This document shows positions 1-26,369 of a stretch of DNA of 64,000 nucleotides, piece by piece. The notes below the pieces were generated by a model. That model was not told the origin of the DNA. It did no database searches and saw only the letters and a program-made list of their open reading frames with translations. Origin of the DNA: Haloplanus ruber. GTDB taxonomy: Archaea; Halobacteriota; Halobacteria; Halobacteriales; Haloferacaceae. The DNA is taken from contig NZ_JANHDK010000002.1 of NCBI RefSeq assembly GCF_024494725.1, positions 248,001 to 312,000 of the forward strand. The letters run 5' to 3'. Each line of letters begins with the position of its first letter. Position 1 is the first letter of the stretch. Made by a program: the position numbers and the translations under genes.

Positions 1-1
1 C

Positions 2-610
2 GCCATCGCCTTCGCCTCGTCGTCGACGGTCTACGGCGAGGCGCCCCGGCCGACGCCGGAGGATTACGCTCCCTTGGAGCCGATCAGCATGTACGGGGCG
101 TCGAAACTCGCAAACGAGAGCCTCCTCTCCGTGTACGCACACAGCTACGACTGCACGGCCTGGATCTTTCGGTTCGCCAACGTCGTCGGGGAGCGCCTGC
201 AACTCGGCGCCGTCGTTCCGGACTTCATCGAGAAGTTGCGGGCGGATCCGACCGAACTCGAAATCCTCGGCGACGGGCGGCAGGAGAAGTCGTATCTCCA
301 CATCGAGGACTGTCTCGACGCGATGGAGCACATCATCGAGGAAACCGACCGCCCGGTGAACACCTACAACCTCGGCACCCGGACGACAACGTCGGTTCGC
401 CGCATCGCCGACATCGTGAGCGAGGAGATGGACCTCGACCCGACCTACGAGTACACGGGCGGGGACCGGGGCTGGACGGGGGACGTCCCGAAGATGCGTC
501 TCTCCATCGAGAAACTGAGCGCGCTGGGGTGGGAGCCGGCGTATGCGAGCGACGAGGCGGTTCGGGCGGCGACGCGAGCGTTGCTCACCGGCGAAGGCAT
601 CGAGGACTAA
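2..610 (+). CDS. NAD-dependent epimerase/dehydratase, C-terminal part (cut by window edge)
   Basis: The frame is open from the left edge of the window, so the gene is truncated at its 5' end; about 202 residues are visible. It shows the extended short-chain dehydrogenase active site: a Ser-rich strand SSSTVYGE followed by the catalytic YGASK (Tyr-x-x-x-Lys). Downstream are DGRQEKSYLHIEDC and a YNLGT segment, typical of UDP-glucose 4-epimerase-like sugar-nucleotide enzymes. The likely role is interconversion of nucleotide sugars for surface glycan synthesis, which fits the glycosyltransferases further on. The exact sugar substrate cannot be told from sequence. A second, complete epimerase lies at 46122-47063. 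Confidence 0.88.
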   Translation, partial: AIAFASSSTVYGEAPRPTPEDYAPLEPISMYGASKLANESLLSVYAHSYDCTAWIFRFANVVGERLQLGAVVPDFIEKLRADPTELEILGDGRQEKSYLHIEDCLDAMEHIIEETDRPVNTYNLGTRTTTSVRRIADIVSEEMDLDPTYEYTGGDRGWTGDVPKMRLSIEKLSALGWEPAYASDEAVRAATRALLTGEGIED

Positions 611-629
611 CCACGTCTCGGGACGTGTC

Positions 630-743
630 TCACTCGATGATCGCCAGGCAGGCATTACAGAGTGCGCCGATCCACGGTTCGTCTTGGTGTACCTCCGTTC
701 GCTCCTCACACTCGGGGCAGTATTTCCGGTCGTCTACGGCCAT
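630..743 (-). CDS. Small CPxC zinc-ribbon microprotein (37 aa)
   Basis: This short ORF runs from an ATG at 743 to a TGA at 630 and encodes 37 residues. It has two cysteine pairs, CPEC at residues 9-12 and CNAC at 29-32, separated by an acidic stretch with one Trp; that is the layout of a one-knuckle zinc ribbon. Haloarchaea carry many such small CPxCG-type zinc-finger proteins of unknown role. A TATA-like box on the same strand (766-776) sits about 27 bases above the ATG, as expected for a leaderless haloarchaeal transcript, and supports it being real. Function unknown; RNA or protein binding is a guess. Confidence 0.6.
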   Translation of the reverse strand: MAVDDRKYCPECEERTEVHQDEPWIGALCNACLAIIE

Positions 744-1056
744 CACCCAACACGTCACTCGATTGTCTATAAAACCTTCCGGAGAGTGAGGTCAATTGAA
801 AGCAATACCGCTTGGGGACATCCACAGCCACTCAACCGCAGCGATTTGAGGACGTACGGGGGACAGACGTAGCAGCAGGAACGTGATCGGCTATGATACC
901 AGTTAGCCGCGCGGAAGTAGAGATGCTCAGTATACGATAGACAGTAGCCGGGAACCACCTCGGATCGGCAGGTGGAAGTCAAATACGGAGACGGACCACC
1001 CCAAAGTGTATATCTTTTAGTTGATATAATCGGGACGAGCCGGCGCCCCCTGAAAC
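744..1056. promoter_or_regulatory. Intergenic promoter region
   Basis: No gene is seen here. A TATA-like box for the minus strand at 766-776 serves the zinc microprotein. On the plus strand an AT-rich patch around 1008-1030 (TATATC and GATATAAT) lies just upstream of the ABC transporter start at 1057 and is its likely core promoter. Confidence 0.45.
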
Positions 1057-2835
1057 ATGACAGATCTGCGCGAGAAACTACAGGCTGTTTATAAAGCAGC
1101 ACGATTCCGCCCCTGGCTCGGAACCACGATTGTCGTACTGAGCTTTGTCACCGCGTTGCTAGAAGGAATCGGACTCAGCTTCCTGCTTCCGATACTCGAG
1201 ATCGCGCAGTCGCCGTCATCACCCGCAGAAGCCGATGGGATCTTCGGCTTTTTCACCCGTGCGTACGCCTTATTGGGGGTTCCGTTTCAGCTCGAATATC
1301 TGATTATTGGGATTGCAGCCGTTATGACCGTTCGATTCGCGTTGACGTTTCTTACTGCGTGGCTCCGCTCGGTGTTCGGACTGGGCTATCAGCGCGAGTT
1401 ACGGAAGGAACTTTTCGATTCGGTCATGTACGGACCAATCGAATATATCGACGAAGTTGGGTCCGACGAACTCCTGAACAGCCTCATCACCGAGACGAAC
1501 AAGGGTGGAGGGGTTCTGATGATGACGTTCAGTATTGTCGGGACTGGTCTGCGGGGTGTTGTCTATCTCTGTCTGGCAGCCGTACTCTCGCCAACGCTGA
1601 CCGCAGTCGCACTGGTCAGCCTGGGGGTTAGTACGATAGTGGTCAGGTACGGCCTCGAGCCGGCATACGGTGTGGGAGACAAGTCAGCCAACGTGAATGA
1701 TAGGATTCAGGCTATCTCACAGACTAGTTTTCAGGGAGTACGCGATATCCGACTGTTCAACATGCAAGAGGAGTTGTCCGGGCGAATGACCGATGCGCTC
1801 GACGACTATCTGAACATCAACGTTCGGCTCCGGCGAAATCAGGCCGCGCTAAACAACCTCAACAAGTTCACGAACGCGCTCGTCGTGTTCGGGTTAGTGT
1901 ACGTCGGATTCACCTACACTGGGCTTTCGGTGTCGAGACTCGGGGTGTTTCTTTTCGCTGTATTCCGGCTGTCTCCCGTTCTAAACCAACTCAACACGCA
2001 GATATACGGCTTGGATGGACAGTTACCGCACGTGGTACGCATTCACGCTCGACTGCGAGAGATATCTGAACGAAAGTCGGCGATGTCTACCGACGGAGCT
2101 CCCGTTAACTCGGTGGAGACCATCCGATTCGAGGGGGTATCGTTCGCCTACGAAGGCGACAGTACGGTGCTTCAGGACATCTCGTTCGAAGTTGGCCGGG
2201 GTGAAGAGATTGCTCTCGTGGGACCGTCCGGAGCAGGTAAGTCGACCGTCGTCTCGCTGCTCGGCCGGTTACGGAACCCCAACGCCGGACGGATTCTCGC
2301 CGACGGAACGCCGATCAGCGAATTCGATACCGACGAGTGGCGGGATTGTATCGCAATCGTTCGGCAAAGCCCGTTCATATTCAACGGGACGCTTCGGGAG
2401 AACGTCACTATCGGCAACCGAGATGCCTCCCAGCGGGAGATAGAGCGAGTTTGTGAGGTGGCACAGGTGACGGAGTTCCTCTCCGGGTTGCCCGACAGGT
2501 ACGAAACGGAGTTGGGCGAAAACGGCGTCCGTCTATCGGGAGGGCAAAAGCAGCGAGTAGCAATCGCCCGGGCACTCCTCAAGGAAGCCGATATACTCGT
2601 TCTCGACGAAGCAACGAGCGAACTCGACACCAACATCGAACGGGACGTGTACCGTGGCATCAGAGAACTCGAAAATCGATTCGCAACGATCAGTATCGCG
2701 CATCGGCTGTCGACCGTTAGCGATGCCGACCGAATCTACACGTTCGTGAACGGCCGCATTACCGAAGTCGGCACACATACGCAACTTCTCGACAGCGAAG
2801 GAGACTACGCGGACTTATACACGACGCAATCGTAA
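1057..2835 (+). CDS. ABC exporter, fused membrane and ATPase domains (probable lasso peptide exporter, D protein)
   Basis: This 592-residue half-transporter has an N-terminal membrane domain (about residues 20-310, several hydrophobic helices) fused to a nucleotide-binding domain. Walker A is GPSGAGKST at residues 389-397, the signature is LSGGQKQR from 493, Walker B is ILVLDE from 513, and the switch His is in IAHRLS at 549. All catalytic residues are present, so it should be active as a homodimer. This type exports lipids, peptides or glycans. It is the first gene of a locus holding lasso precursors, B1, B2 and C proteins, so export of mature lasso peptide (D role) is the best reading. The nearby epimerase leaves glycolipid flipping as the alternative. 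Confidence 0.85.
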   Translation: MTDLREKLQAVYKAARFRPWLGTTIVVLSFVTALLEGIGLSFLLPILEIAQSPSSPAEADGIFGFFTRAYALLGVPFQLEYLIIGIAAVMTVRFALTFLTAWLRSVFGLGYQRELRKELFDSVMYGPIEYIDEVGSDELLNSLITETNKGGGVLMMTFSIVGTGLRGVVYLCLAAVLSPTLTAVALVSLGVSTIVVRYGLEPAYGVGDKSANVNDRIQAISQTSFQGVRDIRLFNMQEELSGRMTDALDDYLNINVRLRRNQAALNNLNKFTNALVVFGLVYVGFTYTGLSVSRLGVFLFAVFRLSPVLNQLNTQIYGLDGQLPHVVRIHARLREISERKSAMSTDGAPVNSVETIRFEGVSFAYEGDSTVLQDISFEVGRGEEIALVGPSGAGKSTVVSLLGRLRNPNAGRILADGTPISEFDTDEWRDCIAIVRQSPFIFNGTLRENVTIGNRDASQREIERVCEVAQVTEFLSGLPDRYETELGENGVRLSGGQKQRVAIARALLKEADILVLDEATSELDTNIERDVYRGIRELENRFATISIAHRLSTVSDADRIYTFVNGRITEVGTHTQLLDSEGDYADLYTTQS

Positions 2836-3116
2836 ACCGGTGAGACGCTGTGCTACAGTCGGAAACCTCGGACGTGGGGACGACAACTCGACGCACAGAA
2901 CATCCGAAACCGTGTTATAGCCGACATTCGCGGGTGCTGAGGGATTATGCGATGGTCGAACCGAAGCCGTAGAATCCGGTCGGACTGTTTCGGTAAGAGA
3001 GCTTCGCACTGATCAGGGGGAGTCGCCTCCTGAAGGCCGACAACGGCCGTTTCTCGGTCGAAGGGTCACCAGTACGGGCTGGAACGGTAGACTGAAAAAT
3101 CGCGAATGGCCGGCCG

Positions 3117-3278
3117 TTATGAGTCTTGGACGAAGTCGCCGTCCAGCGGGTTCGGATCGTTCGTGTCGGTGAAGCCGTCGACGGCTGAACCGATCTTGTC
3201 TTGACTGTTCTCGGTCACCGCGCCGACAGCACCGTACGATTCCACCGTGGGGGTCTGGTACGTTCGTTTTCTTGTCAT
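3117..3278 (-). CDS. Lasso peptide precursor A1 (53 aa)
   Basis: This short ORF runs from an ATG at 3278 to a TAA at 3117. The N-terminal half carries the lasso leader signature Tyr7-x-x-Pro10-x5-Gly16-x5-Thr22, the motif bound by lasso B1 recognition domains. The second half is Gly/Asp/Asn-rich and ends in Ser53. A block DKIGSAVD (residues 27-34) is nearly repeated in precursor A2 as EKIGSAMD. If the core starts at Gly30, Asp38 would be ring residue 9; if cleavage follows Thr-x as in classical lassos the core would start at Asn24 with no well-placed acid, so the cut site is uncertain. The gene lies just downstream of the cyclase gene and has its own TATA box. A C-terminal Ser is the residue phosphorylated by known lasso kinases. 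Confidence 0.75.
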   Translation of the reverse strand: MTRKRTYQTPTVESYGAVGAVTENSQDKIGSAVDGFTDTNDPNPLDGDFVQDS

Positions 3279-3301
3279 CAATTCAGTAACTATACCGAGA
3301 T

Positions 3302-3314
3302 AACATAAAAGTTT
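3302..3314 (-). promoter_or_regulatory. TATA box of precursor A1
   Basis: On the minus strand this reads CTTTTATGT, centred about 29 bases above the A1 start codon, the spacing of a leaderless haloarchaeal transcript. A1 can therefore be transcribed separately from, and more strongly than, the upstream B1-C operon. The rest of 3279-3463 shows nothing else. Confidence 0.4.
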
Positions 3315-3463
3315 GGTCGCGGGGTGAACACTATCCTAGCGATAGATTGCGGACGGCGATCTGAGGCCCCACAACGGCCGGACACGATACGAAGGCTGTC
3401 GTCCGAGAGCCTGTGGGCCTGTGTTCGTCGAGATGGGGTGACGCCACGCGAAACGCGAACGAA

Positions 3464-5326
3464 CTACTGAGTGTTCAACCACGTCCACAAGGCAAGTGCT
3501 CGCCAGAGAACCCGAACGTCTCCACCGTCTCGTTCCGTATTGAATCGTTCGTAGGTGGACCGGAGTACGTCCATGTCGTGATACTGCGCGATGACCCCGG
3601 GGGCGTCGAGCATCCGCGAGATCGCCTCGTCTTCCCGTGCTAGCGCATTACGAACCGCGTCATCCATCGTCGTTTTCTGTAGCCGTGACCGGATTTCCTC
3701 GGGAAGAACGTCGTGAAGGGAGCGGCGGACGATAGAGCGCGGGCGCCCCTCGGAAAACTGCTGGGTCGGCGGAAGCTTGATCAGGAACTCGAGGAGTCGC
3801 CTATCGGTGTACGGATGTCGGGATTCGATACCGAACGCTGCGTCACGCTGGTTACACACTTCGAGTGCTTCGGTGAACATACCGATCATTATCGACGTGT
3901 AATGCTGCCGTCTGTAGTTCGGACGTAACGATCGGTCGGCCACGTTTAGCGTTTTGTACCTACTACGAAGTGCAATCCGTTCCGCGAAGTCCGGATCTAT
4001 CGCCGGGTTCGCCCGTTCCTCGAGTACGGGATTACCCCGAATCTGTTGCAGCGTCCGAACGAGTCCGTCCGGAACGAGTCGCTTGATAACTTGATTGTAG
4101 AATATGTCCGTTTTTTTGCCGTTCCACGTCTCACTCGTTGTCTTGAGTTCGTCGTACAGTTGCAGCCAGTGGCCGGTTCGGAAGAGGTACAAAAATACGC
4201 CGAGTCCCTGACCGCCCGCTGCATCCCCCATGAGACCAGTCAACAACACATCGAGGCCGATCTCGTCGGCTTGCTTCGCTCGTTCCCACCCTGTAAAGTG
4301 TGCTGGATGATGTAGCGGTTGGTCGAAACAAGATACGAGATCGTCACGGTCAACGAGTATACTGACACCGTCGGTCTGGACGTACCACGGAGAGATCCCG
4401 TCCTGATCGGCCATGACGTCGATATACGCCCGCTCGTCGCTCCCGGGCGTGTCGTCAAAGACGTTCGAAATGGAGTGAAGGGTCTCGTGGTCGGGGACTA
4501 GCTCTCGGGCGACGGCAGTAACCGACGACGAATCGAGACCGCCGCTGAGCTCAACGCCGGCATCTCCGGAGGTGCGGAGGCGACACCGCACGGCCTCGGT
4601 GAACAGTTCTCGAAACCGGGTTTCGTACGCTGCATCGGATTCGAGACGGAGCGGAGTGTCGAGAGCGGGTTTCCAGTATCGTTCCATCGACCGCCCGGTG
4701 GCCGATAGCTGTAGTGTGTGCGCGGGGGGAAGTCGGCGCACCGATTGGTGGATCGTATTCTGCTTATCACCGAATCGTCCAACGAGAAAGTCGCCGATGC
4801 GTTCCGGATCAGATTCCGTCGGGATGAACGGTAACGAGAGGAGCGCTTTGATTTCCGAGGCGGCGGCGAACACGTCGTCAGCCCGGTAGTAGTACAGCGG
4901 CCGAACCCCAACGTGATCCCGCGCACAGAACAACGTGCCTGCGTCGAGATCGAAGATGACGAACGCGAACGCACCGACCAGGTGTTCGGCGCACTGGTTG
5001 CCCCACCTGCGGTACGCCGCAGCGATGAGTTCGCTATCCGAGATCTGTTCCGCAGGTTCGGAGATCGTGAGCTTCGAGAGGAGTTCGTGACGGTTGTCTA
5101 TCCTGGCATCCGCGCTCACGACCGTGTCGCCATCGCGATAGGGTTGATCGTCGAGCGCAGACTGCGGGGTGGTCTGGAACTGTTGGTGACCAAGGGCAAC
5201 GTGATCGTCGCACCACGAAGCACACCCGTCCGGGCCACGGTGGTCGATCGCCTCCAGCATCCGTCGAATATTGTTCCGGCTGTCGAACGCTCGATTCCGG
5301 TCGAAGAGTGCGACGATCCCGCTCAC
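3464..5326 (-). CDS. Lasso peptide cyclase (C protein, asparagine synthetase-like), 620 aa
   Basis: This is an asparagine synthetase B homologue: an N-terminal class II glutamine amidotransferase-like domain (residues 1 to about 200) followed by an ATP-pyrophosphatase domain with the P-loop SGGLDSS at 261-267. The protein begins Met-Ser-Gly-Ile-Val, whereas true asparagine synthetases begin Met-Cys-Gly-Ile. The glutaminase nucleophile Cys is therefore absent, as in many lasso cyclases, which adenylate an Asp/Glu side chain and close the macrolactam. It starts with GTG, overlapping the stop of the upstream ORF (GTGA), so it is translationally coupled into the B1-B2-C order. A1 follows downstream. 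The alternative, a sugar- or peptide-modifying amidotransferase, is less likely given B1, B2 and the leader peptides. Confidence 0.85.
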   Translation of the reverse strand: MSGIVALFDRNRAFDSRNNIRRMLEAIDHRGPDGCASWCDDHVALGHQQFQTTPQSALDDQPYRDGDTVVSADARIDNRHELLSKLTISEPAEQISDSELIAAAYRRWGNQCAEHLVGAFAFVIFDLDAGTLFCARDHVGVRPLYYYRADDVFAAASEIKALLSLPFIPTESDPERIGDFLVGRFGDKQNTIHQSVRRLPPAHTLQLSATGRSMERYWKPALDTPLRLESDAAYETRFRELFTEAVRCRLRTSGDAGVELSGGLDSSSVTAVARELVPDHETLHSISNVFDDTPGSDERAYIDVMADQDGISPWYVQTDGVSILVDRDDLVSCFDQPLHHPAHFTGWERAKQADEIGLDVLLTGLMGDAAGGQGLGVFLYLFRTGHWLQLYDELKTTSETWNGKKTDIFYNQVIKRLVPDGLVRTLQQIRGNPVLEERANPAIDPDFAERIALRSRYKTLNVADRSLRPNYRRQHYTSIMIGMFTEALEVCNQRDAAFGIESRHPYTDRRLLEFLIKLPPTQQFSEGRPRSIVRRSLHDVLPEEIRSRLQKTTMDDAVRNALAREDEAISRMLDAPGVIAQYHDMDVLRSTYERFNTERDGGDVRVLWRALALWTWLNTQ

Positions 5327-5754
5327 AGGTCATCACCTGTGCCGAAAGCGAGAGGCAGAGAGGGAGACGAAAAGCGGGTATCGGCGGCGGAATTCGCACC
5401 GTGCCCGATAGCGCCGAGTCTCTCGGACGGAGCATGAACGCGTAGTTCGGCACCCGTTCGAGATCTCGGGAAGCGTTCAAGCGGCGTATATATGGTTCCG
5501 ACATAGAAGGGTGAATCTCCGAAGTCACCACGGCCGGGGAAGGAGTGCTCAGTCGTTACGGTGGTTCGACGGACCAAATCGGGGTAAGAGGCGCAAAAAC
5601 TCTCACCACCGGCGGGTGACTGGCGGCGAGATGATTGCCGGGTGCTCGCGGATCGCGTCGGGGTAGTCGGAACGAGGCCAGATGACACACGTAGCGAGTG
5701 GAGCGATAGTGTTCTGTGTTGAACTGGTAACGCCTCGCTCGCAGATGGACTCAT
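5323..5754 (-). pseudogene. Degenerate lasso B2 peptidase (copy 1)
   Basis: This 143-codon open frame sits exactly where B2 is expected. Its ATG overlaps the B1 stop (ATGA) and its stop overlaps the cyclase GTG. It does not read as a normal protein (Ser/Arg/Pro-rich, no hydrophobic N-terminal helix). Aligned by eye to the intact B2 at 8024-8470, traces remain: PxLV....VT.E..FPG matches PSRIV....VTEYYLPG, and APSERLGAIGH matches PHSEDGFIAHS, which keeps the catalytic His register. The catalytic Cys segment is lost. I read it as a decayed B2 whose frame stayed open. It could instead be a diverged functional protein; nucleotide alignment would decide. Confidence 0.5.
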
Positions 5755-6059
5755 ACCTCATCCTGAGGGTCGGGAGTGTGAACCAAATCTAGTTCGAGGA
5801 GTTCCGAAACCAACGTTCGAACGTCCATCTTGCACCGGTCTTTATCAACGTCGTACGCTTCGAAGATGGTCTCATATATCTCCTCAACGGTGTGCGGTTC
5901 TTGGACGATATTCCAGATATCCGCCCCGACCCGGTTGAAGCCATAGTACGTTCCGCCTTCAATATGAAGGATCACCGATTCGTCGTCGATCTCTGTCGAA
6001 AGACAGTCCTCACTGGCGACGATTGTCGTCGAGTCCGAGAGATTAGGATTCGAAGACAT
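5751..6059 (-). CDS. Lasso B1 protein, PqqD-like precursor recognition element (102 aa)
   Basis: This stand-alone PqqD-fold protein has the family pattern: a beta-rich N-terminal half (ESVILHIEGGTYYGFN, then a GADIW turn) followed by helices (TVEEIYETIFEAY) and a final LVSELLELDLV helix. In lasso pathways this RiPP recognition element binds the leader's YxxP motif and delivers the precursor to the B2 peptidase and cyclase. It is the first gene of a minus-strand unit in which every junction overlaps (B1, degenerate B2, C). A TATA box lies about 35 bases upstream. PQQ biosynthesis is unlikely, because no other pqq gene is nearby and the partners are lasso genes. Confidence 0.82.
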   Translation of the reverse strand: MSSNPNLSDSTTIVASEDCLSTEIDDESVILHIEGGTYYGFNRVGADIWNIVQEPHTVEEIYETIFEAYDVDKDRCKMDVRTLVSELLELDLVHTPDPQDEV

Positions 6060-6070
6060 TCACGGTCAGG

Positions 6071-6098
6071 TATCAATATACTATCATAGGATATAAAT
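6071..6098 (-). promoter_or_regulatory. B1 promoter and conserved upstream element
   Basis: A TATA box (plus-strand TATAAAT, about 6092-6098) is followed toward the gene by TATCAATATACTATC at 6071-6085, 12 bases from the B1 start codon. The degenerate B1 copy has the same arrangement, TATCGATATACTGTC at 8785-8799 and TATAAAT at 8806-8812, with almost identical spacing. Shared sequence between two otherwise decayed upstream regions suggests a common promoter or operator inherited from a duplication. Confidence 0.5.
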
Positions 6099-6448
6099 TC
6101 TGCTGGTTCCCGGAGAGTCCGTATATAAAGCGTCACATCCTCACACGGTCTTCGACCCGTCGGACGTGAGTTACTACTGGTCGCCTGCTTTTCGACGGTG
6201 GAGACATGATGACAGTGGTTTCGGGTGGGCGTACCCTTCGCGCACAGCATCGTGGTATGTTTCCGGTAATCGCGTCACTGAACGCGGTTCGTGACTCTCG
6301 CGCACGATTCACCGTTGTACCGCGACGGCGGAGACAAGCGGATACGAGCTCTCGGCCTGCGCTCTTAGCAGGTGGAGCTATGGGAGTCGAAACACCGAAT
6401 GTCAGCAAAGTATATGTTCACGTACCGTTTATACACCAACGACGGTGA
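6099..6448. other. Intergenic spacer between B1 and the kinase
   Basis: No convincing gene is seen. It separates the divergent B1 and kinase genes. A TATA-like GTTTATACACC at 6427-6437 lies directly before the presumed kinase start and is probably its promoter. An unusually long spacer for a divergent promoter pair may mean lost coding sequence. Confidence 0.35.
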
Positions 6449-7348
6449 CTGATTATCTACTATAGAGTATACGGGCTGGTAGTTCGGTCGGATATCGAAC
6501 TACCGGAACTCCGGTCCGTCGATCCCGAGGATGCCACGGCCGATGTCGTCATCCAGCGCGATCAGCTCTCATCGGTCCCGGAATCAGCGAGGGGAAACGC
6601 TGGCGAGCGGTTTCAAGCTGGCCCAGAGAAGTGTCACCTTACGTATGACGGGGTCGGGTCGTTTCTGATCGAATCCGGTGAGCGAATCCAGTACGATCCG
6701 GCCGCGGCTCGGGCAACACAGACGGGGGCGTTCCGAAAGATACTGTTGAATCAAGGGCTCGGGCTGCTTCTTCATCAGCGGGGAACCCTCGTGTTGCACG
6801 CTAGTGCCGTGTCGATCGACGGACAGGCAGTTGTGTTTCTCGGGGAACGGGGTGCCGGAAAATCAACGACTGCCGCAGCACTTCACCTGCGAGGGTTTCC
6901 GATAATCGCGGACGATGTCGTTGGCATCACCCTCAAAGATGGTGAGCCAACCGTCGTGCCCGGGGTTGCACATCTCCATCTGACGGCGGATGCGGCCGGC
7001 CTTCTTGACGTCGCTCACTCTGCGACAGAGGGTACGGCACGAAAGGAGCAGTATCGAGCCGAAGGTGTCTCGGCGGCGGTACCCCTGTGCCGGATATATC
7101 ACCTCGAAGGCGGGGAGTCTGTTTCGCTTCGAACGCTATCGGGGAGAGAGTCGTTTTTAGCTCTGCTCGACAATAGTTACGCCACGGCGATCCTTTCAGA
7201 TACGGGAACAGTATCTACTCACTTTCAGCTGTGCTCGGACGTCCTCACGAAGGTACCCTGCCGACGGCTGCGGCGACCAAAGGACGCCGAAACGCTGCCA
7301 ACGGTCGTCGAGCAGGTTCGGGATGATTGTCCGCCACCGTCATCATAA
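6449..7348 (+). CDS. HPr kinase-like precursor kinase of the lasso locus; start codon disrupted
   Basis: The open frame from 6449 encodes about 299 residues. It contains the HPr kinase/phosphorylase-type P-loop GERGAGKST (from 6842), preceded by [12 protein letters not shown] and followed by IADDVVGI, both typical of the family. Homologues in bacterial lasso clusters phosphorylate the precursor's C-terminal Ser. The N-terminal part (YRVYGLVVRSDIELPEL) is clearly coding but has no in-frame ATG, GTG or TTG before 6746. A GTG at 6445 sits well behind the promoter but is out of frame and meets TAG six codons later. Either a frameshift near the start has damaged the gene, a rare start codon is used, or a shortened 200-residue form starts at 6746, keeping the P-loop. 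The paralogue at 41508-42425 has a comparable length (305 aa), supporting the long form. Confidence 0.7.
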   Translation: MIIYYRVYGLVVRSDIELPELRSVDPEDATADVVIQRDQLSSVPESARGNAGERFQAGPEKCHLTYDGVGSFLIESGERIQYDPAAARATQTGAFRKILLNQGLGLLLHQRGTLVLHASAVSIDGQAVVFLGERGAGKSTTAAALHLRGFPIIADDVVGITLKDGEPTVVPGVAHLHLTADAAGLLDVAHSATEGTARKEQYRAEGVSAAVPLCRIYHLEGGESVSLRTLSGRESFLALLDNSYATAILSDTGTVSTHFQLCSDVLTKVPCRRLRRPKDAETLPTVVEQVRDDCPPPSS

Positions 7349-7425
7349 ATAGGTAGCGCCCGGGGGGAGTATCCAGCCGTCGACGCTAATTCAACTGCCG
7401 TGACTCGCAGATGACGACGGGGTTG

Positions 7426-7575
7426 TCAGTCTGATTCGACATCGCCGCTCAGGATTATATCACTCGTCGTCGTGACTTCCGAGTCCATCGCACTTCCGAT
7501 CTTCTCGTCTCGTTCGGTCCGAGAACTCACGGTGCCGTACTCCTCGATCACGGGCGTTTCGTACGTCTTGCTCAT
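7426..7575 (-). CDS. Lasso peptide precursor A2 (49 aa)
   Basis: It runs from an ATG at 7575 to a TGA at 7426. It has the same leader motif as A1 with identical spacing: Tyr5-x-x-Pro8-x5-Gly14-x5-Thr20. This is followed by EKIGSAMD, which mirrors A1's DKIGSAVD. The tail is Thr/Ser/Asp-rich and ends ESD, so Ser is penultimate rather than terminal. If the core starts at Gly27, Glu33 would be at ring position 7; this is only a guess. The gene lies downstream of the degenerate cyclase copy, in the same relative position as A1 to the intact cyclase. A TATAAAA box (7607-7617) is about 35 bases upstream. Confidence 0.72.
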   Translation of the reverse strand: MSKTYETPVIEEYGTVSSRTERDEKIGSAMDSEVTTTSDIILSGDVESD

Positions 7576-7606
7576 TATACACCCCACATCATATTGTACG
7601 CTTCGT

Positions 7607-7617
7607 GGTATAAAACC
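7607..7617 (-). promoter_or_regulatory. TATA box of precursor A2
   Basis: The minus strand reads GGTTTTATACC, about 35 bases above the A2 start codon, giving A2 its own promoter independent of the B2 operon. Confidence 0.4.
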
Positions 7618-7676
7618 AGGGACCAAACAGGAGAAACCGGGGTGCGACAGCGCGCCGGAGAATCAGCGTCGGGAAA

Positions 7677-8027
7677 CTACGCGCGGGCTACGGTGCTGAC
7701 CGGCGACGAATCGAGACCGCCACGGCACAGATCCCAGCGATTGGTATCTCCGACCGACGAGTTCGCTATCCGCGATCCCGCCACCCGCTACGGAAACAGA
7801 CCGCGTCGCCCGTACCGGCTATCGATTCGGGTAAGGGCCGTCGCGGCGGTGGCTGATCGTCGAACCGAGATTCTGGCGTCGACTGGCGTTACCGGGGGCC
7901 GAGTCCGACCCGTCCACACACTGCGCCCGCTCGGACAGCGACCCTCAGGTGAGTTTGGTATCGCCGAAGTAGCGACGGGTGTGAACTCTCCCCGATGTCG
8001 CTCAGAGAGAACGGCGATACTGCTCAC
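7677..8027 (-). pseudogene. Degenerate lasso cyclase (copy 2), internally deleted
   Basis: This begins with GTG at 8027 overlapping the stop of B2, exactly as the intact cyclase does with its upstream ORF. Translated segments match the intact cyclase in order but in different frames. VSSIAVLSERHR matches the N-terminal MSGIVALFDRNR, VDARI matches ADARID, IADSELVGRRYQSLG matches ISDSELIAAAYRRWG, and GGLDSSPVSTVARA then TAG matches GGLDSSSVTAVAREL. About 150 residues between the last two blocks are deleted and several frameshifts are present, so it cannot make a working cyclase. It is the clearest evidence that a second full maturation operon once existed here. Confidence 0.78.
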
Positions 8028-8470
8028 GGGTTGCCCCCGCCATCTAACGGTGGGAGAGGCTCGTATTGCGACAGATCGTCGAGATCCCCGATCAGGACAT
8101 CCCCGTCGTATTCGAGCCAGCTGTGTGCGATGAAGCCGTCCTCGGAATGTGGGTTGACACCGATTCGATGAGTGGGTGCGTATCCGTACAGTCGGAGAAG
8201 CGTCTCGCCTGCTAGTGATCGAACGAGACAGGATCGACTGCCGGGGAGGTAATACTCTGTCACGTTGACTGCCCACACGATGCGCGAAGGGGGAGGCGTC
8301 CCGGGAACACGTCGGTTATCAGGTGTCGAGATACGCAGCAGTCCCGCGCGGACCTTCGAAAATGGCAGGAGGACGATACAGAAAGAGGTAAGCAGCAACA
8401 AAAGCGCCGAACAGAGCACTCTGAACTTATCGCCCGAAGAGAGAGACAAAAATCGTGTGATGCGTAGCAT
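8024..8470 (-). CDS. Lasso B2 leader peptidase, transglutaminase-like (148 aa)
   Basis: The start is set at the ATG at 8470, because the protein from there has the usual B2 form: a short basic start (MLRITRFLSL), one hydrophobic helix (about residues 18-38) ending LLPF, then the papain-like core. The catalytic triad is visible as Cys81 (SRSCLVRSLA), His116 (IAHSWLEYDG) and Asp129 (IGDLDDL). The family (lasso B2) cleaves the leader from the precursor, guided by B1. It is the only intact B2 in the window, so if copy 1 of the locus works at all it must borrow this protein. It is preceded by a degenerate B1 and overlaps a degenerate cyclase. Confidence 0.82.
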   Translation of the reverse strand: MLRITRFLSLSSGDKFRVLCSALLLLLTSFCIVLLPFSKVRAGLLRISTPDNRRVPGTPPPSRIVWAVNVTEYYLPGSRSCLVRSLAGETLLRLYGYAPTHRIGVNPHSEDGFIAHSWLEYDGDVLIGDLDDLSQYEPLPPLDGGGNP

Positions 8471-8772
8471 GGGTCTCAACTCGATCGCCGAACCGGGAGA
8501 GGGGTCGAGTGTCCGATCAGGAAGTGGTCCGTCCAGCTCCCGGGCCGGGGCTTGGCGATACGTGTCGATCCGATCGCGGACGTTTGGGGTCGTTCGAGTA
8601 TCGGGGGGATGAGAGTACTGAATCGTCGCCACAGAGTACGTCCCGTCGTCGCGTGACCACTACCACTAGGACGACTCAGGGGATCGATGAACCGTTGCCG
8701 CGATACTCGGGATCGACAGCCACGGTGCGCTACAGTCGGTGTTGATATCGGGGAAGTTGGGTTCTGAGCCAT
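8471..8772 (-). pseudogene. Degenerate lasso B1 (copy 2)
   Basis: Starting at an ATG at 8772, the first 21 codons read MAQNPTSPISTPTVAHRGCRS, aligning without gaps to the intact B1 start MSSNPNLSDSTTIVASEDCLS. Past a frameshift, DGTYSVATIQYS and P.T....VRDRIDTY match GGTYYGFNRVGADIW and PHTVEEIYETIFEAY of B1. In-frame stops and shifts break the rest. The promoter and its upstream element (8785-8812) also match those of the intact B1. It is followed immediately by intact B2, so the copy 2 order was B1-B2-C-A. Confidence 0.6.
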
Positions 8773-8784
8773 CCGTAGGGTTTC

Positions 8785-8812
8785 TATCGATATACTGTCG
8801 AATAGTATAAAT
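8785..8812 (-). promoter_or_regulatory. Promoter of the copy 2 lasso operon
   Basis: TATCGATATACTGTC (8785-8799) and TATAAAT (8806-8812) reproduce the intact B1 promoter with the same spacing to the start codon. It may still drive the intact B2 gene through the degenerate B1 region. Confidence 0.45.
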
Positions 8813-9530
8813 CTCCGATTGAGATACGAGGGACCGTTGGGATGAAATCATGTCATTACGTCCGTCGGAGGTCGTCGGTACCGGGAGCGACCCCCGCAAG
8901 ACGAAGCAACCGTCGCAGGCAATCAGCGGTATAGAGGTGGGCAGAGTGTGGGGACCGAAACGGATCGCGCTCCCAGCTGTGGGACGTTTGGGCTGGGACT
9001 CACTCCGTCGTACAACGAGCCGATCGCGTTCCGTTATGCGGGTACAACTGGAACTCCCCCCGAAATCACGCGGTGCCTTTTCGGAGAGCGGTGGGCGGAG
9101 TGAGCACGGCGAGCCGGGGATCGGGGGACGCAACGAACCTCCGCCTTCAGCGGCTCGGGACCGTTTGAATGCAGTCGGCCACGCGAAGCCGACGATGGCG
9201 AGACCGCGCTTCCACGCGTGGCTACTCGGTTGGATCGGTACCAACTGTAACGGCGACAACATCACGAACAGGGAGAATTATCGGGCTTAATATTGAGATT
9301 GAACGCGGCCGCTATCGACGCGGGTGACCGAGCGGCGTAGGCGACGCGGGTAGAGAGATCCGAGCGCTTACGAGGCGCTATGGAGCGGTCAAGACTGTGA
9401 GAAGGAAAAACAGCGACCGAGCAAGAGCTCTGAGGGGGATCATCGTGTCGTTACCAACGAAGGGGAGTAGAGGCGTGGCCGGTCACCAGAGTTGGCTTCA
9501 TTACCGCCCAAGGAGTACGTGGCTACGTGA
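8813..9530. other. Long non-coding or decayed stretch
   Basis: Several open frames cross this stretch on both strands but none shows recognisable motifs, consistent composition or a good start. Given its place opposite the degenerate B1, it could hold remains of a second kinase gene, but I could not align any convincing block. I see no supported feature. Confidence 0.3.
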
Positions 9531-9797
9531 ATGTTCGACGTGTACCTACGTGGATTATACCACTTCTTGTCTTCGGGTGCTGTGGGATTGCTGGCGTGGC
9601 TGTTGATCTGTTTGGCATCGTCCGGCACCTCATCGACGGGCCGCGGTGGTTCAACCGATTCGATTTGGCGGTGGCACTGGCGTATACCGCTGTTATTGGC
9701 GGTGTGGACGCATATCGCCGCCGACGTGATTGAACACGGTCATCTCCCTCGGCTCGCCTCGGGACTGACGGAACTGTGGAGAGCGCTGGGTGGCTGA
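9531..9797 (+). CDS. Small putative membrane protein (88 aa), frame uncertain
   Basis: This frame starts with ATG, has mostly G or C at third codon positions as in neighbouring genes, and encodes hydrophobic segments (AVGLLAWLLICLA and RIPLLLAVWTHIAA). The overlapping frame from GTG at 9527 to 9733 also gives a membrane-like 68-residue product (IIPLLVFGCCGIAGVAVDL), with weaker third-position bias. At most one is real. No family recognised. Confidence 0.3.
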   Translation: MFDVYLRGLYHFLSSGAVGLLAWLLICLASSGTSSTGRGGSTDSIWRWHWRIPLLLAVWTHIAADVIEHGHLPRLASGLTELWRALGG

Positions 9798-10200
9798 TGT
9801 GACTGCCGCAGTATCGACTCAGTAGGGGTGTACCCGAATCGGACACGAGGGTGTAGTCGACAGGAGCGATAGAGCAGGGTTCGGGGTGTGCCTGTGGACG
9901 TACGACACGCGTGAGGTGTCGGAGTCGGGGGGACCCTCGAACGAACGGAAAGAAGGTGACGATATTCCGTAGGTCCAACCGCTCCGCAGCTCTGCCGGTC
10001 AATCGCGCCGCGGACACGAACGAAATGTGACACTAAGTAGGATAGTGGATGGCGGGCGGCCGTCCGAGTATGCTGACACCTAAACCAGCACTCAAGAGGA
10101 CGAAAACGGGGCTGCAGTCGTTTCGCCGACGCGCCCGACAGAGGAAAAGGAAGTTCGGGGGCATCCAGAGGAGCCCCCACTTCACAGAGGCCGAGTCGCG
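9798..10200. other. Intergenic region without recognised content
   Basis: No ORF, RNA gene or repeat in this stretch is convincing. It separates the decayed region from the DUF1102-like gene, which ends at 10201. Confidence 0.3.
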
Positions 10201-10821
10201 CTACTTGAGCCCGAGGGTGGTCACGGTGACGCTTCCGTCGAAGAGGGGTTCGTCCGGATTCGCGTCGAAATCACGGGTATCGATGGCGATACCCATCGGC
10301 TGGCTGTCACCCGAGTCGAGAATCACACTTCGATTGATCCGGTCTCGGCCTTCTGGATGATTGATCGGCATCGGATCGTCGTCCTGCTCGTAGAATTCGA
10401 GGCCGAGTTCGGGCGTGGGATTGCTCGCGTTCGGATCGAGGCGGTCGGAGTCCACGTCGGGCATGAATCCCGACTGTGCGTCCTCGGGATCGTATGCGAT
10501 ATAGATGACTGCCCGCTGCGTCCCTTGGTTCGTGATCTGAAACATGTCGTCGAACGCCGTCCGCGCGTTCATGTTCACGCCGGCGCCGCCGGCGGTCGTC
10601 TCCGAGATGTCGATACCGAGCGTGCCGCCGTTGAGGCTGACGAACTCGTCGCTGTTGGAGCTATCGAGCGTGTCGAGGCCAAGAAACGCGTTTTCGTCGC
10701 TAGCCACCGCAACGTTCACCGTTCGTTCGGCGTCGACGCTGGTGAACGCACCGGTTCCCATCGCCGTCGCCGAGGCGGCGGCCAGCGATCCGAACCCCGC
10801 CAGGAACTTGCGTCGGTTCAT
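10201..10821 (-). CDS. Exported DUF1102-like protein with Tat signal (206 aa)
   Basis: The N-terminus has a twin-arginine signal, NRRKFLAGFG, followed by an Ala-rich hydrophobic stretch and a probable cut near Val-Asp-Ala. The mature part is acidic, with VNVAVASDENAFLGLD and an NMNARTAFDDMFQITNQG block, then a beta-rich domain ending FDGSVTVTTLGLK. This resembles the haloarchaeal secreted family often labelled DUF1102, whose function is unknown; some members neighbour archaeal signal peptidase and surface-protein genes. It stands alone here. Function not assigned. Confidence 0.75.
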   Translation of the reverse strand: MNRRKFLAGFGSLAAASATAMGTGAFTSVDAERTVNVAVASDENAFLGLDTLDSSNSDEFVSLNGGTLGIDISETTAGGAGVNMNARTAFDDMFQITNQGTQRAVIYIAYDPEDAQSGFMPDVDSDRLDPNASNPTPELGLEFYEQDDDPMPINHPEGRDRINRSVILDSGDSQPMGIAIDTRDFDANPDEPLFDGSVTVTTLGLK

Positions 10822-11080
10822 GATGCTCTTATCTTTCGATGCCGGCCACAGGTCATAGTATTAAACCGATTGACCGGGACCATTTCCAGCCAGTCCCGAG
10901 TAAATCGCTCATATCCAGGGGAGTTGACGACCACCTCAACCCGATATTCGGCCGGAGGTTTCCGCCGAACCTCCGGGTGTCGAGTCCGACGGCCCACCGT
11001 GAGCGGACTCCGGCCTGGTGTGACCGGGGACGTTCGTCCGCCCGAACGATATTAGTCAGTGCGTCGAAGTATCCCCGGAC

Positions 11081-11611
11081 ATGATCGATTCGACGCGCGG
11101 TCGGCTCCTCGCAGTCCTCTGTCTGCTCGCCGTACAGGCCTCGCTATTTCCACTGTACGCACAACAGCCGATAGATCCGGCGGCACACGTCTATCCGGAG
11201 GGCCCAGACGTCGCTAGCGATCCGGCGGCGTACATCGGCGAACGCGTCGAAATAACCGGAATCGTACAGCGGACGGCGCCACTCGTCGTTCGGGTCGAGA
11301 CGATGGAGGGATCGATGGCGATCAGAGTCGCCAATCACGGCCTCTCGCCGGAACGCGGCGCGAAGGTCCGCGTCTTCGGAACGCTCACCGCGGCAGGCGA
11401 ACTCCGTGCGACCGACGGGTTCGTCGTCCCTCAGCGCGGACGGTGGTACGCCTGGGGAATCTCTTTTCTGGCCGGCCTCTGGGTTCTCTACCGACTCGTC
11501 GTACACTGGCGAGTGAAGGCCGCGACGCTGGGGTTCGTCCCTCGGGAGACGCCAGCAACGATTCGGGCGTTGCTTGAACGAATCACGCCGGGAGCGGAGG
11601 GACTGGACTGA
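11081..11611 (+). CDS. Membrane-anchored OB-fold-like protein (176 aa)
   Basis: A hydrophobic N-terminal segment (RLLAVLCLLAVQASLF) is followed by an external domain with an OB-fold-like pattern: AAYIGERVEITGIVQR, then VRVETMEGSMAIRV and KVRVFGTLTAAGELRA. A second hydrophobic helix (AWGISFLAGLWVLYRLVV) precedes a short basic tail. This layout recalls nucleic-acid-binding or CcmE-like OB domains, but no binding residues are identifiable. It is coupled to the next gene by a TGATG overlap, so the two probably act together. A TATA-like GATATTAG lies about 30 bases upstream of the ATG. Confidence 0.65.
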   Translation: MIDSTRGRLLAVLCLLAVQASLFPLYAQQPIDPAAHVYPEGPDVASDPAAYIGERVEITGIVQRTAPLVVRVETMEGSMAIRVANHGLSPERGAKVRVFGTLTAAGELRATDGFVVPQRGRWYAWGISFLAGLWVLYRLVVHWRVKAATLGFVPRETPATIRALLERITPGAEGLD

Positions 11612-12120
11612 TGCCGGATTTACTGGCACACGCCTTCATCGCGTACGCTGTCTGTCGTGTCCTGTCGTGGCGCTGGGAGTGGCTCACGACGGAGTACGTC
11701 ACCGTCGGGATGGTCGGGGCGTTGATTCCGGACATCACGAAAGTCTATCTCGTCGTCCCGAATCACGCGATGGAACGGCTCCTAGGAACCCCCTTCTCGT
11801 GGTACAGTCTGGGCACCGGCGGCGGCGTACTGGTGAGCGTCCTGATCGGCGTCGTACTCGCCGCTTCGGAGGTTCGTCGACCCGTCGGGGTCGCCCTGGG
11901 AATCGGCGCCGGGAGCCATCTCCTCGCCGACAGCCTCCTCTTGACACCGACAGGGTACAGCACGCAACTCCTGTGGCCACTGTCACAGGTCCGGACGCTG
12001 AGCCCGGGGTTGTATTTGAGCACGCAACCGGGGCCGATGGTCGTGACCGGAGTCGTCGCGGCCGTGGTCTGGATGGTGCATCGTCGTCGTGTTTCGGTGT
12101 CAGACGCTGAATCCGAATAA
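11611..12120 (+). CDS. Predicted membrane-bound hydrolase, YdjM/DUF457-like (169 aa)
   Basis: This multi-pass protein starts MPDLLAHAFIAYAV and has ALIPDITK and GAGSHLLADSLL, the spaced His/Asp pattern (LLAH, PDI, SHLLAD) of the LexA-regulated membrane hydrolase family (YdjM/DUF457). About four hydrophobic helices are visible. The family is thought to be a metal-dependent membrane hydrolase related to phospholipase C-like folds, but substrates are not established. It overlaps the preceding OB-like gene by one base (TGATG). Confidence 0.7.
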   Translation: MPDLLAHAFIAYAVCRVLSWRWEWLTTEYVTVGMVGALIPDITKVYLVVPNHAMERLLGTPFSWYSLGTGGGVLVSVLIGVVLAASEVRRPVGVALGIGAGSHLLADSLLLTPTGYSTQLLWPLSQVRTLSPGLYLSTQPGPMVVTGVVAAVVWMVHRRRVSVSDAESE

Positions 12121-18497: not shown

Positions 18498-19604
18498 TTA
18501 TTTCTCCTTGATGACCGCTTCGAGTTCTGCCTCGAACTCCCGCCGGTCTCCGTCTGCCGCTAGGCGGGCGTCCTCGATTGCGTCGGCTGCGGGAATCGAG
18601 TCGTAAGCGATGATAGGCGTTCCGAATCGGTTAGCCTCTGACAGCGGGAGCCCCCACCCTTCGGAGTGCGAGCAGGTGGCGTAGACATCACTCCGGTCGT
18701 ACAGCCCGGCCAACGTCTCGTCGTCGACGAATCCGGTGAGGATCACGTCGTCGCTGGCACGGTCTCGGACGGTGGCGGAGTACTCGTTCATGTTCTCCTT
18801 GCCGACGAGGACGAGCTTGTACCCCGCCTCGCAGTCGGTGACTCGTTCGAAGGACGCCACCAGTTCGTGGATGTTCTTCCGGGGCGTGATCCGCCCGACG
18901 TGGAGGACGACCGTGTCCGACGGGTCGATGTCATACTGGTCTTCGATCTCCTCTCTTGACGCAACGCTTTCGAACCGCGACTCGGGGACGCTGTTCGGGA
19001 CGAGGATGGCGTCCCGGCCTGTCTTGGACTCAATGTACGCTCTGGAGCCCTCACTCACGGCACAGACGTAGTCTGCCCGCCCGACGGTCAGGTGCTTCGT
19101 CTCCAAGTGGTGCTGGAGTTTCGCCCAGATCTTCGCCACGCCATCGAAGAGGTCGTCCGAAGACTGCGAGGGGTGCGACCAGAAGACATAGGTCGTCCCG
19201 TAGAGAGTTGACGACAAATACCCCAACACAGAGAACGGGAACCGATGGGCGATGACGAGGTCGGCGTCGCCGAGTCGCGAGAGCGAGCGCCACCCTGGAG
19301 GCGTGACCGGAACAAGGAGTTTATCCAGTTCTTTGTAGGGCGTGGTCTCGAACCGGCCATACTCATATAGTGTGACGCCGTCTGGGGGGTCCTTGGTCGC
19401 CGTCAGAGTGTGGATCTCGACATCGTAGCCCTCGCTGGAGAGATCGATGGCCTGCTGTTCGACAACTCGGGCAACGCCGCCAGTGTCAGTATAGGAGGTG
19501 GCGCAGATTGCAACCGAATAGATGGTTTCGGGGAGTGCATTCACAAAATCCGCCATTGTGGAGTAGCGGTTATTCATGTGGGGAGTATCTGGATTTATTG
19601 ACAT
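18498..19604 (-). CDS. Glycosyltransferase family 4 (about 368 aa)
   Basis: GT-B fold: YSVAICATSYTDTGGVARVVEQQA near the N-terminus, then HVGRITPRKNIHELVASFERV and SHSEGWGLPLSEANRFGTPIIAYD, carrying the E-x7-E type donor site. I set the start at the ATG at 19604; an ATG at 19556 (MADFVNALPETIYS) fits the family length even better. The frame stays open a further 89 codons upstream, but that part is AT-rich and does not resemble a protein family. It marks the left border of the AT-rich island. Confidence 0.82.
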   Translation of the reverse strand: MSINPDTPHMNNRYSTMADFVNALPETIYSVAICATSYTDTGGVARVVEQQAIDLSSEGYDVEIHTLTATKDPPDGVTLYEYGRFETTPYKELDKLLVPVTPPGWRSLSRLGDADLVIAHRFPFSVLGYLSSTLYGTTYVFWSHPSQSSDDLFDGVAKIWAKLQHHLETKHLTVGRADYVCAVSEGSRAYIESKTGRDAILVPNSVPESRFESVASREEIEDQYDIDPSDTVVLHVGRITPRKNIHELVASFERVTDCEAGYKLVLVGKENMNEYSATVRDRASDDVILTGFVDDETLAGLYDRSDVYATCSHSEGWGLPLSEANRFGTPIIAYDSIPAADAIEDARLAADGDRREFEAELEAVIKEK

Positions 19605-19993
19605 ATCTGCTCTCAAGATTAAAAAAGCATGAGAAACAAGTTGATTTGGCCGCCACCTCCGCATATTACAGCGGGTAGTAGGACTGTATCGCCCTATGAG
19701 GAGGTGCGCCAAACGGTACATGATCCCTATAGAATAGTCGTTATCAGGAATTAGTAGATTACCCCACTCCTCTGAGAATACGGCCACTTCGGTATCACGA
19801 TTCAATCGTTTATGTAGGGGTGCCACAATTTTTACAAAAATTTTATGAGGTAGAATGGTCCACGGTTCCACTTCTATTTGACTTCTAAAATAATACTATC
19901 AATCCTCATCTTAGGGAGATATGCTGCTGCTTCCAAATGACTTTAGTCTTCCATGATTAAGCGCAGATCAGACCTATACAGCGACTCATCAAG
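19605..19993. other. AT-rich intergenic spacer
   Basis: Composition changes here from G+C-rich to AT-rich. It holds upstream regions for the divergent glycosyltransferase genes at 19604 (minus) and 19994 (plus). No other feature is supported. Confidence 0.35.
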
Positions 19994-21076
19994 ATGAAAA
20001 TAAGTATAATTTCGAGTGCATACGATGAAGAGTGTGGGATCAATCACTATACCACTAGCTTGGAGTCTGTACTAAGCGTTCAGTACGAGAGGATAGGAAT
20101 TAAGTCCTATTCACTAGACTTTCTACATTATATAAGGAGAACGTGGTCAGCAGTAACCAATGACTCTGATATAATACATCTTCAACACGAGTACAATATG
20201 TTCGGTCCTGGTTCTATCTGTAGCTGGCCGGTCATATTCTTATTAATTCTATCGAAAATATTCGCCAGAAAGAGGATCGTGATTACGCTTCATACTGCTT
20301 GGGAAAGCGAAACACTGGAGCGATTTGTATTCCCGCTTAATCTCCTAGGAAGATTCTACATTTGGCTGAATAACCAATTGTTAGTGTGGTGTGCTGATCA
20401 TATGATTTTCCTCTCAGAGAACGTCGAAGAGTACTTTATCAACAATTTCAATGTGAAAAGCACGACTAGAGTCCCCCATGGGGTGCAGGCACAGAAAGTA
20501 GACTTAACAAGGAATGAAGCTAGAGATATCCTAGGATGGGATGTCGAAGCCGAGATAGTAATTTTACCAGGATATATCCGCCCTCAGAAGAATCACGAAT
20601 CATTCCTTAGTTTGGCAGAAGAGGATAAGTCTCGGCAGTATGTTATTGCGGGTGGAGTAAGAAATAATAAATTTGAACAGTACTCAGAGAAGTTACGATC
20701 CAAATCTTCTGAGAATGTAGAAATAACTGGCGTACTCAACGACGAAGAATTCGAAGCAGCGTTCATTGCGGCAGACCTCTGTTATCTACCGTACCAAGAC
20801 GTGAGTCAGAGTGGGATTGTTAATTGGTCACTCGCTAGTGGACTTCCCGTATTTGGGAGTGAAATAAAATATTTTCGGGAATTATCAGAGAGTACGGAAG
20901 CAGTAAAGATAGTGGGGATTAGTCCCGAGGGTGTCATCCCTGAAATCCGATCATACTTCGATAATGAAAAGCTCCGAACTCGAATGTCCAATTCAGCACA
21001 GGAATTCGCAAAAAATAATAGTATGAAAGAGGTAGCTGATGAACACATTCGGATTTATCGCTCGTTCTTTGATTAA
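19994..21076 (+). CDS. Glycosyltransferase, GT4-like, AT-rich (360 aa)
   Basis: This shows the GT-B pattern: MKISIISSAYDEECGINHY at the N-terminus, VILPGYIRPQKNHESFLSLA at the domain junction and LPYQDVSQSGIVNWSLASGLPVFGSE in the donor domain. The E-x7-E motif is replaced by a Ser-rich version, as in some family 4 members. Codon choice is strongly A/T at third positions, unlike the genes to its left, so it was probably acquired by transfer as part of the surface-glycan island. Confidence 0.78.
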   Translation: MKISIISSAYDEECGINHYTTSLESVLSVQYERIGIKSYSLDFLHYIRRTWSAVTNDSDIIHLQHEYNMFGPGSICSWPVIFLLILSKIFARKRIVITLHTAWESETLERFVFPLNLLGRFYIWLNNQLLVWCADHMIFLSENVEEYFINNFNVKSTTRVPHGVQAQKVDLTRNEARDILGWDVEAEIVILPGYIRPQKNHESFLSLAEEDKSRQYVIAGGVRNNKFEQYSEKLRSKSSENVEITGVLNDEEFEAAFIAADLCYLPYQDVSQSGIVNWSLASGLPVFGSEIKYFRELSESTEAVKIVGISPEGVIPEIRSYFDNEKLRTRMSNSAQEFAKNNSMKEVADEHIRIYRSFFD

Positions 21077-21356
21077 TACCTGTCGTGATTCGTTATGAAT
21101 TAGAAGATTTGCCAAGAGTGTTACCCAGAAAGACGCCATCTCAGCAAAGAGCTGATTCTGTGAATATCACAAGTTCATCCATAAATACTCTTCTTTTCAC
21201 AAATATTTAACTCGATGATAAGTTTCGTCGCTATCAGAATGTTTCCCGTACATTGAGATCCGCTCCGCTTGAAGCATATTATCTGTTTATACCTTTGTTC
21301 AGAATCATTACTATTCGTTCAAATATGGGAATGAGCGGGGCAAAGAGAATCAGTAA

Positions 21357-21525
21357 AGGCCAAAATAAGGAAGGGTAGGCGAGACAGCGATCATAGAGGT
21401 TGTGCGCCCACTCAGCTAGTTGGTAGTCGGGTACGCACTATTCACTCAGGGGTTCGGTATCTACGCGCTGGTATATAGTTATTTGATCGGGTCTCTTCTC
21501 AGGGCTGTAATCGATTGATGAAAAA
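21357..21525 (+). pseudogene. Fragment of a polysaccharide flippase gene
   Basis: In one plus-strand frame this reads GETAIIEVVRPLS, a TAG, LVVGYALFTQGFGIYALVYSYLIGS, then ends. The complete flippase at 23640-25085 has GETAILEVIRPLSWLVVGYFLYLRGYGVYALVYGYLVGT, so the fragment is a decayed homologue in which a Trp codon (TGG) became TAG. It covers only about 45 residues of the middle of the protein and is followed by an IS6-family remnant, the probable cause of its truncation. Confidence 0.7.
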
Positions 21526-21529
21526 TCTC

Positions 21530-22221: not shown

Positions 22222-22256
22222 AAAAAATATATAAAAACAGAGACAAGCTCAAATGT

Positions 22257-23198: not shown

Positions 23199-23392
23199 CC
23201 CGACAGTATCGTACTAGAGGTATTTTTACAATAAACTTCCCCCATTCGAATAACCAGTCTATAAGTTCAAAAGCAGTGTATTTCCATTTTTGATTTCTTC
23301 AATGACCGCAGCAAAAGCTACTTGAACACCCCTTAGGAAGTTATGTATGCACATAAAAAATAAAAATAGGGAACGTGACTAATACATCCTAT

Positions 23393-23622: not shown

Positions 23623-23639
23623 CTACCTTCCCTAACAAC

Positions 23640-25085: not shown

Positions 25086-25142
25086 TCTATGAGAACTACT
25101 CGCGTAGTTGTCACCCAATGCATTATTTTAACTCTATTGATT

Positions 25143-26264: not shown

Positions 26265-26369
26265 ATTAACAAATGGTAATTCTTTCCACATAACCGTTTC
26301 TATAATAGAGGACCTCACAGAGGTCCAGTGTCATATTCTTTCATATAAATATATCATTAGACACACTGA

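Follow-up and report, generated by a model that had tools for sequence, protein, structure and literature searches.

A split lasso-peptide locus in Haloplanus ruber

The 64,000-nucleotide stretch of Haloplanus ruber DNA analysed here (the window), which belongs to a 3.28 Mb, 9-contig haloarchaeal genome, contains a lasso-peptide block in which one working maturation set is probably divided over two operons: precursor A1, cyclase C1 and leader-binding protein B1 lie beside an ATP-binding cassette (ABC) exporter gene, and precursor A2, a dead second cyclase (C2) and leader peptidase B2 lie beside a kinase gene. Read 5′ to 3′ on the minus strand, the first operon consists of B1 (6059-5751), a gap of ~425 nucleotides (nt), C1 (5326-3464) and A1 (3281-3117), and the second of B2 (8470-8024), C2 (8027-7656) and A2 (7572-7426); the genes for the exporter (1057-2835) and the HprK-like kinase (6449-7348) are on the plus strand. 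Whole-genome searches counted B1, B2 and a lasso-type C once each, in agreement with the preliminary description of this DNA, which had noted that only one intact copy of each is left for two precursors. With one B1, one B2 and one C1 for A1 and A2, the enzymes would have to act in trans on both.

Maturation enzymes, exporter and kinase

The same description had called the block an archaeal lasso-peptide locus, which is borne out by C, B2 and PqqD each scoring above the curated threshold of its family. C1, with its GATase and Asn-synthase domains, scored 584 bits against the lasso cyclase model NF033535 (cut-off 525) and retains the SGGLDSS motif; compared with solved structures, it matched asparagine synthetases and one hydroxyamidotransferase. 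B1 scored 65 bits against PF05402 (cut-off 23.4), as expected of a PqqD-type recognition element for ribosomally synthesised and post-translationally modified peptides (RiPPs), and none of its 11 invariant positions is altered; the narrower lasso_PqqD_Bac model gave 71 bits where 80 are needed, a cut-off reached in 0 of the 10 haloarchaeal genomes tested. C1 and the PqqD-like B1 can accordingly be kept as intact genes, as proposed. B2, for which no solved structure was matched, reached 96 bits with the transglutaminase-like peptidase model NF033537 (cut-off 33) and keeps 28 of 30 invariant positions, Cys, His and Asp being conserved. It is indeed the intact Cys-His-Asp peptidase that had been described, with its start corrected to the ATG at 8470 from 8632 or 8772.

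The exporter is of the MsbA/peptide-exporter type (Pfam ABC_tran and ABC_membrane) and shares 62-68% identity with the exporters of four haloarchaeal lasso loci. The kinase carries the P-loop GERGAGKST and is 42-46% identical to the kinases of relatives' lasso loci; it scored 33.0 of the 33.3 bits required for PF07475 and 45 of 200 for TIGR04352. The earlier naming of an HPr-kinase-like kinase finds some support in the identity to relatives' kinases, with both family scores below threshold and a full-length frame obtained only from a CTG codon.

Remnants of second gene copies

Judged from its alignments, C2 is certainly a real remnant of a second cyclase. It is a pseudogene broken by stops, frameshifts and internal deletions, lacking the segment of about residues 111-262, and was recognised by tblastn with E-values as low as 2e-10. 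At the nucleotide level the remnant aligns with the cyclase gene of Halopiger (73.7% over 99 nt, blastn 4.8e-9) and with C1 (80% over 55 nt, blastn 1.3e-5), so the degenerate second C that had been proposed is confirmed by a significant alignment with its intact partner.

The degenerate B2 that had been placed in the first operon was not borne out. Between B1 and C1 lies an open minus-strand frame of 143 codons (5323-5754) with the geometry of a B2 gene, overlapping the B1 stop by ATGA and the C start by GTGA. Its G+C content at the three codon positions is 0.61/0.63/0.55, where real genes have 0.32-0.48 at position 2. Profile searches gave no family match in this slot, frameshift-aware profile alignment and tblastn with ~30 haloarchaeal B2s gave nothing convincing, and local and global nucleotide alignments to B2 were no better than shuffles (Needleman-Wunsch z of 1.9 to the window B2 and about 0 to relatives' B2). 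We therefore do not accept 5323-5754 as a degenerate B2, which geometry alone favours, and regard the slot as probably non-coding.

The sequence upstream of B2 (minus strand, 8471-8820) probably consists of a promoter and the decayed beginning of another B1 gene (ATG at 8772). It aligns with B1 over the promoter (ATTTATA..CTAT...AGTATAT.GAT) and ~25 codons, an alignment matched by 1 of 300 dinucleotide shuffles. Global alignment of this region to relatives' B1 genes gave z values of -1.1 to 3.4. The degenerate second B1 of the preliminary description thus retains weak support from the promoter and first codons. The open reading frame at 8476-8772 was rejected as a gene by its codon-position G+C and its lack of family matches. 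No kinase or ABC remnants were found in 2836-3116 and 6060-6448.

Split layouts in other haloarchaea

Of 394 genomes sampled from the order, 31 have a B2. The gene complement of the window (ABC, kinase, A, C, B2 and B1) occurs in compact form in other haloarchaea and on a plasmid of Halopiger xanaduensis SH-6, the common arrangement being B1-B2-C-A (loci L034, L050, L052, L054-L057, L068, L069 and Halopiger L036). The comparison with relatives that had been suggested thus yielded undivided operons, of which L034 and L036 are examples. Loci with two precursors are also common (L035, L054, L055, L087).

The separation of B2 from a B1-C pair recurs in Halosimplex salinum and three further haloarchaeal genomes. 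In Halosimplex salinum (L087) the order is B1-C-A-A, and B2 lies behind a YdjM gene on the opposite strand; L033 and L037 each have two subclusters, one of B2-C and one of B1 and a divergent C; and in L035, which has two cyclases, B1 is at one end and B2 at the other. Searches of the three whole genomes with family models (G384 for L033, G146 for L035, G200 for L037) found that each has only one B1 and one B2 for two intact lasso-type cyclases, which argues that sharing in trans is a persisting arrangement. Sharing of B1 and B2 between cyclases thus appears to be a repeated haloarchaeal state, of which the window would be a reduced form with one cyclase left. No B2 remnant was found between B1 and C in L087, L033 or L037, so that an original B2 in the slot of the window need not be assumed.

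Precursors and the position of the ring

The two precursors with a lasso leader motif that had been described were both confirmed, although the curated precursor models gave only sub-threshold matches to them. A1 (leader YQTPTVESYGAVGAVTE, core NSQDKIGSAVDGFTDTNDPNPLDGDFVQDS) and A2 (leader YETPVIEEYGTVSSRTE, core RDEKIGSAMDSEVTTTSDIILSGDVESD), their cores delimited by the rule of Thr at -2, are 44% identical and share the motif YxxPx[V/I]...G.....T, which conforms to the pattern YxxPx[L/V/I] with Thr at -2. A1 ends in Ser and A2 in Ser-Asp.

Among precursors next to cyclases of the main clade, relatives' precursors having been selected solely by the leader pattern, 22 of 23 contain a core block [N/D/E]-K-x-G-x3-D; the sole exception, L068, has N-K-x5-D. 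The block was found in none of 79 non-haloarchaeal lasso loci, nearly all of them bacterial; a contig scan with C alone gave no match, and the alignment scan took in one haloarchaeon and otherwise bacterial loci and a few other archaeal ones. Under the standard leader rule (Tyr at -17 and Thr at -2, PMC10368454) the start of the block shifts between core positions 2 and 6, a variation of 0-4 residues in its spacing from the leader motif; relative to the standard cleavage point the block is not fixed, and its Asp is found between positions 9 and 13. Known ring acceptor residues are at core positions 7-9 (PMC6784204), where 11 of the 23 precursors, A1 and A2 included, have no acidic residue: after standard cleavage these would be D4 and D11 in A1 and D2, E3, D10 and E12 in A2. 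For A1 and A2, letting the core begin with the [N/D/E] of the block is the one choice that brings an acceptor into positions 7-9 (D8). With that start every ring would have eight residues, which implies that the leader is not cut at a fixed distance or that trimming precedes cyclisation. We infer that either leader cleavage is not set by distance or the rings are larger than those known. The divergent cyclase subclusters (L033:13192-15855 and L037:2730-5046) have a precursor type of their own, ..G[RN]HFS[RA]VDGNSGTTGNRG.., with a standard G1...D8 ring and no B2 of their own.

We tentatively suggest, at less than even odds, that these precursors form a haloarchaeal lasso-like family with its own rule, in which a fixed ring block is combined with a sequence-defined B2 or trimming cut, or with rings of 10-13 residues, and in which B1 and B2 are pooled. 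Such pooling between precursors and cyclases would account for the operons having been split repeatedly.

Proposed maturation pathway

Each chemical step proposed here is deduced from sequence. B1 would bind the YxxP leader of A1 or A2, B2 would remove it by cleavage, and C1 would adenylate the side chain of an Asp, most probably the one conserved in the block, and close the ring onto the new N-terminus. The kinase, if translated, would phosphorylate the C-terminal Ser, as bacterial HprK-like kinases do with lasso precursors (PMC8498205), and the ABC protein would export the product. The second operon would have arisen as a paralogous copy or have been acquired separately, redundant genes being lost afterwards.

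Origin and state of the locus

The preliminary description had explained the two operons by duplication followed by reciprocal loss, which is only partly supported because the evidence consists of one firm remnant (C2), one weak remnant (the second B1) and slot geometry. Tandem duplication of a complete unit (ABC-KIN / A-C-B2-B1) within the lineage, with reciprocal loss extending to exporter and kinase, is a serious candidate that we hold at somewhat under an even chance. By order and strand the window corresponds to two units of the L034 layout, ABC, C and B1 being left from one and KIN and B2 from the other; the slots have sizes and overlaps that suit the loss of one B2 and one B1 (302 nt), and the B1-like promoter and start stand where a second B1 would be expected, 5′ of B2. 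The best tree also sets C2 beside C1, but with 50% support, no better than alternative placements, and C2 is equally near C1 (52%), Halopiger C (52%) and L056 C (54%). The low identity of A1 and A2 also speaks against a tandem copy, as does the absence of any detected remnant of B2, kinase or ABC, since a full tandem copy would leave kinase and ABC traces. The alternative is a mosaic, in which an A1-C1-B1 block without B2 joined a resident A2-C2-B2-kinase locus and the redundant C2 then decayed: the distance between C1 and C2 equals that between cyclases of different genera, and B1-C without an intervening B2 or its remnant exists in L087 and as the second cyclase subcluster of L033 and L037. 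Against a mosaic stand the promoter-like and B1-like sequence upstream of B2 and, between B1 and C1, a gap the size of a B2 whose overlaps are of the coupling type; we consider such a second acquisition only slightly less likely than the tandem duplication.

Several observations weigh against a working divided set. The cluster was found in no congener, and B2 in 0 of 11. The kinase frame starts at a CTG (6449-6451), where relatives mostly have ATG or GTG; its first ordinary start, TTG at 6746, would remove the N-terminal third, and the CTG may reflect either start-codon loss or non-standard initiation. A TTTATA box lies ~20 nt upstream of this CTG. C1 is altered at 14 of 120 otherwise invariant positions (106 kept), compared with 1-6 in each of the other cyclases, and its branch is the longest of its clade (0.94, median 0.42), the window proteins being on long branches generally. 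Together with the abnormal kinase start, these changes indicate that the cluster may be losing function, and partial decay is possible. That decay extends to the entire locus and no lasso peptide is made, as the dead C2 might also suggest, seems unlikely to us, since C, B1, B2, ABC and both precursors are long open frames of coding-type composition, which speaks for the maintenance of C1, B1 and B2, and nearly all invariant residues are kept in B1 and B2. It is more improbable still that the enzymes are active but make an unthreaded or differently sized macrolactam rather than a classical lasso. The conserved Asp beyond the usual acceptor positions and the 11 precursors lacking Asp or Glu there would suit such a product, but C1 exceeds the lasso cyclase cut-off, and a core anchored at [N/D/E] gives a uniform ring size, with Asn as first ring residue having a precedent in metanodin (PMC12670498). 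One shared set acting on A1 and A2 remains our preferred reading.

Neighbouring genes

The lasso block adjoins a surface-glycan region of the window. Between 11.6 and 25 kb are genes for a YdjM hydrolase (intact, 11611-12120), two sulfatases, glycosyltransferases and a flippase; the glycosyltransferase and flippase genes of ~19500-31300, where G+C is ~42-47% as far as profiled and low at third codon positions (flanks 60-65%), are likely acquired glycan genes. By eye, an epimerase-like open reading frame lies at 74-610, and two overlapping plus-strand frames at 9527-9797 resemble a frameshifted piece of a membrane hydrolase gene of the YdjM type. The lasso loci of Halopiger (L086) and Halosimplex (L087) likewise adjoin genes for YdjM or metal-dependent hydrolases. 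An Rfam search of positions 1-12000 gave no match.

Comparison with known systems

Archaea are known to carry putative lasso genes (PMC6784204), and a haloarchaeal cluster that contains B1, B2 and a kinase and resembles the one of Halopiger has been noted before (PMC10093198); in the literature searched, which covered few subscription journals or preprints, we found no experimentally characterised archaeal lasso peptide. The haloarchaeal loci described here offer a concrete, expressible gene set for testing one. The loci are also a natural test of whether lasso enzymes of separate operons are pooled, and the ring block, constant in shape and variable in its distance from the leader, sharpens the question of how the cleavage site is defined.

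Linear polyphosphorylated peptide (LPP) clusters of Bacillota (PMC13381572) resemble the locus in their RiPP recognition element, HprK-like kinase, MsbA-type exporter and YxxP leader, but they have no cyclase and use a SipW-like peptidase, whereas the window has C and B2. Among the haloarchaeal loci, L038-L044, L046, L048 and L058-L060 (genus g43 and others) contain B1, B2, an HprK-like kinase and an ABC exporter with no nearby cyclase except in L040, and most of them encode a near-identical precursor, MKEYETPSVETYGTVEEKTNWWDHDDGYGKWS; genome G225 has no lasso-type cyclase at all. Such cyclase-less loci possibly make a linear phosphorylated RiPP, the archaeal counterpart of LPP. In genome G468, which has no lasso cyclase over the cut-off, L066 (13309-16923, minus strand) carries six or more precursors in tandem, alongside B1, B2, ABC and kinase; their leader, MTYE[KQ]PTLETYG[RH][VI]ESLTQ/R, is nearly the same throughout, whereas the short cores differ, most of them with SEP. 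This array resembles a cassette for short peptides that are freed by leader cleavage.

The paeninodin-type clusters of Bacillota and Proteobacteria (A, K, C, B1, B2, D; PMC8498205) have in common with the window separate B1 and B2, an HprK-like kinase, an ABC exporter and a YxxP leader. The window differs in being archaeal, in its enzymes spread over two operons, its abnormal kinase start, the Ser-Asp end of A2 (Ser in A1) and the block [N/D/E]KxGx3D. The Halopiger xanaduensis SH-6 locus on pHALXA01 (L036/L086) has the same gene set and core block, with identities of 49% for C, 53% for B2 and 66% for ABC, but a compact, undivided B1-B2-C and a single precursor. The two-cyclase loci L033, L035 and L037 share with the window one B1 and one B2 set apart and a common leader type; both of their cyclases are intact, whereas the window retains one. 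Set beside these systems, the window is best read as holding a lasso cluster in two parts, whose enzymes would be pooled and whose precursors have a core specific to the clade.

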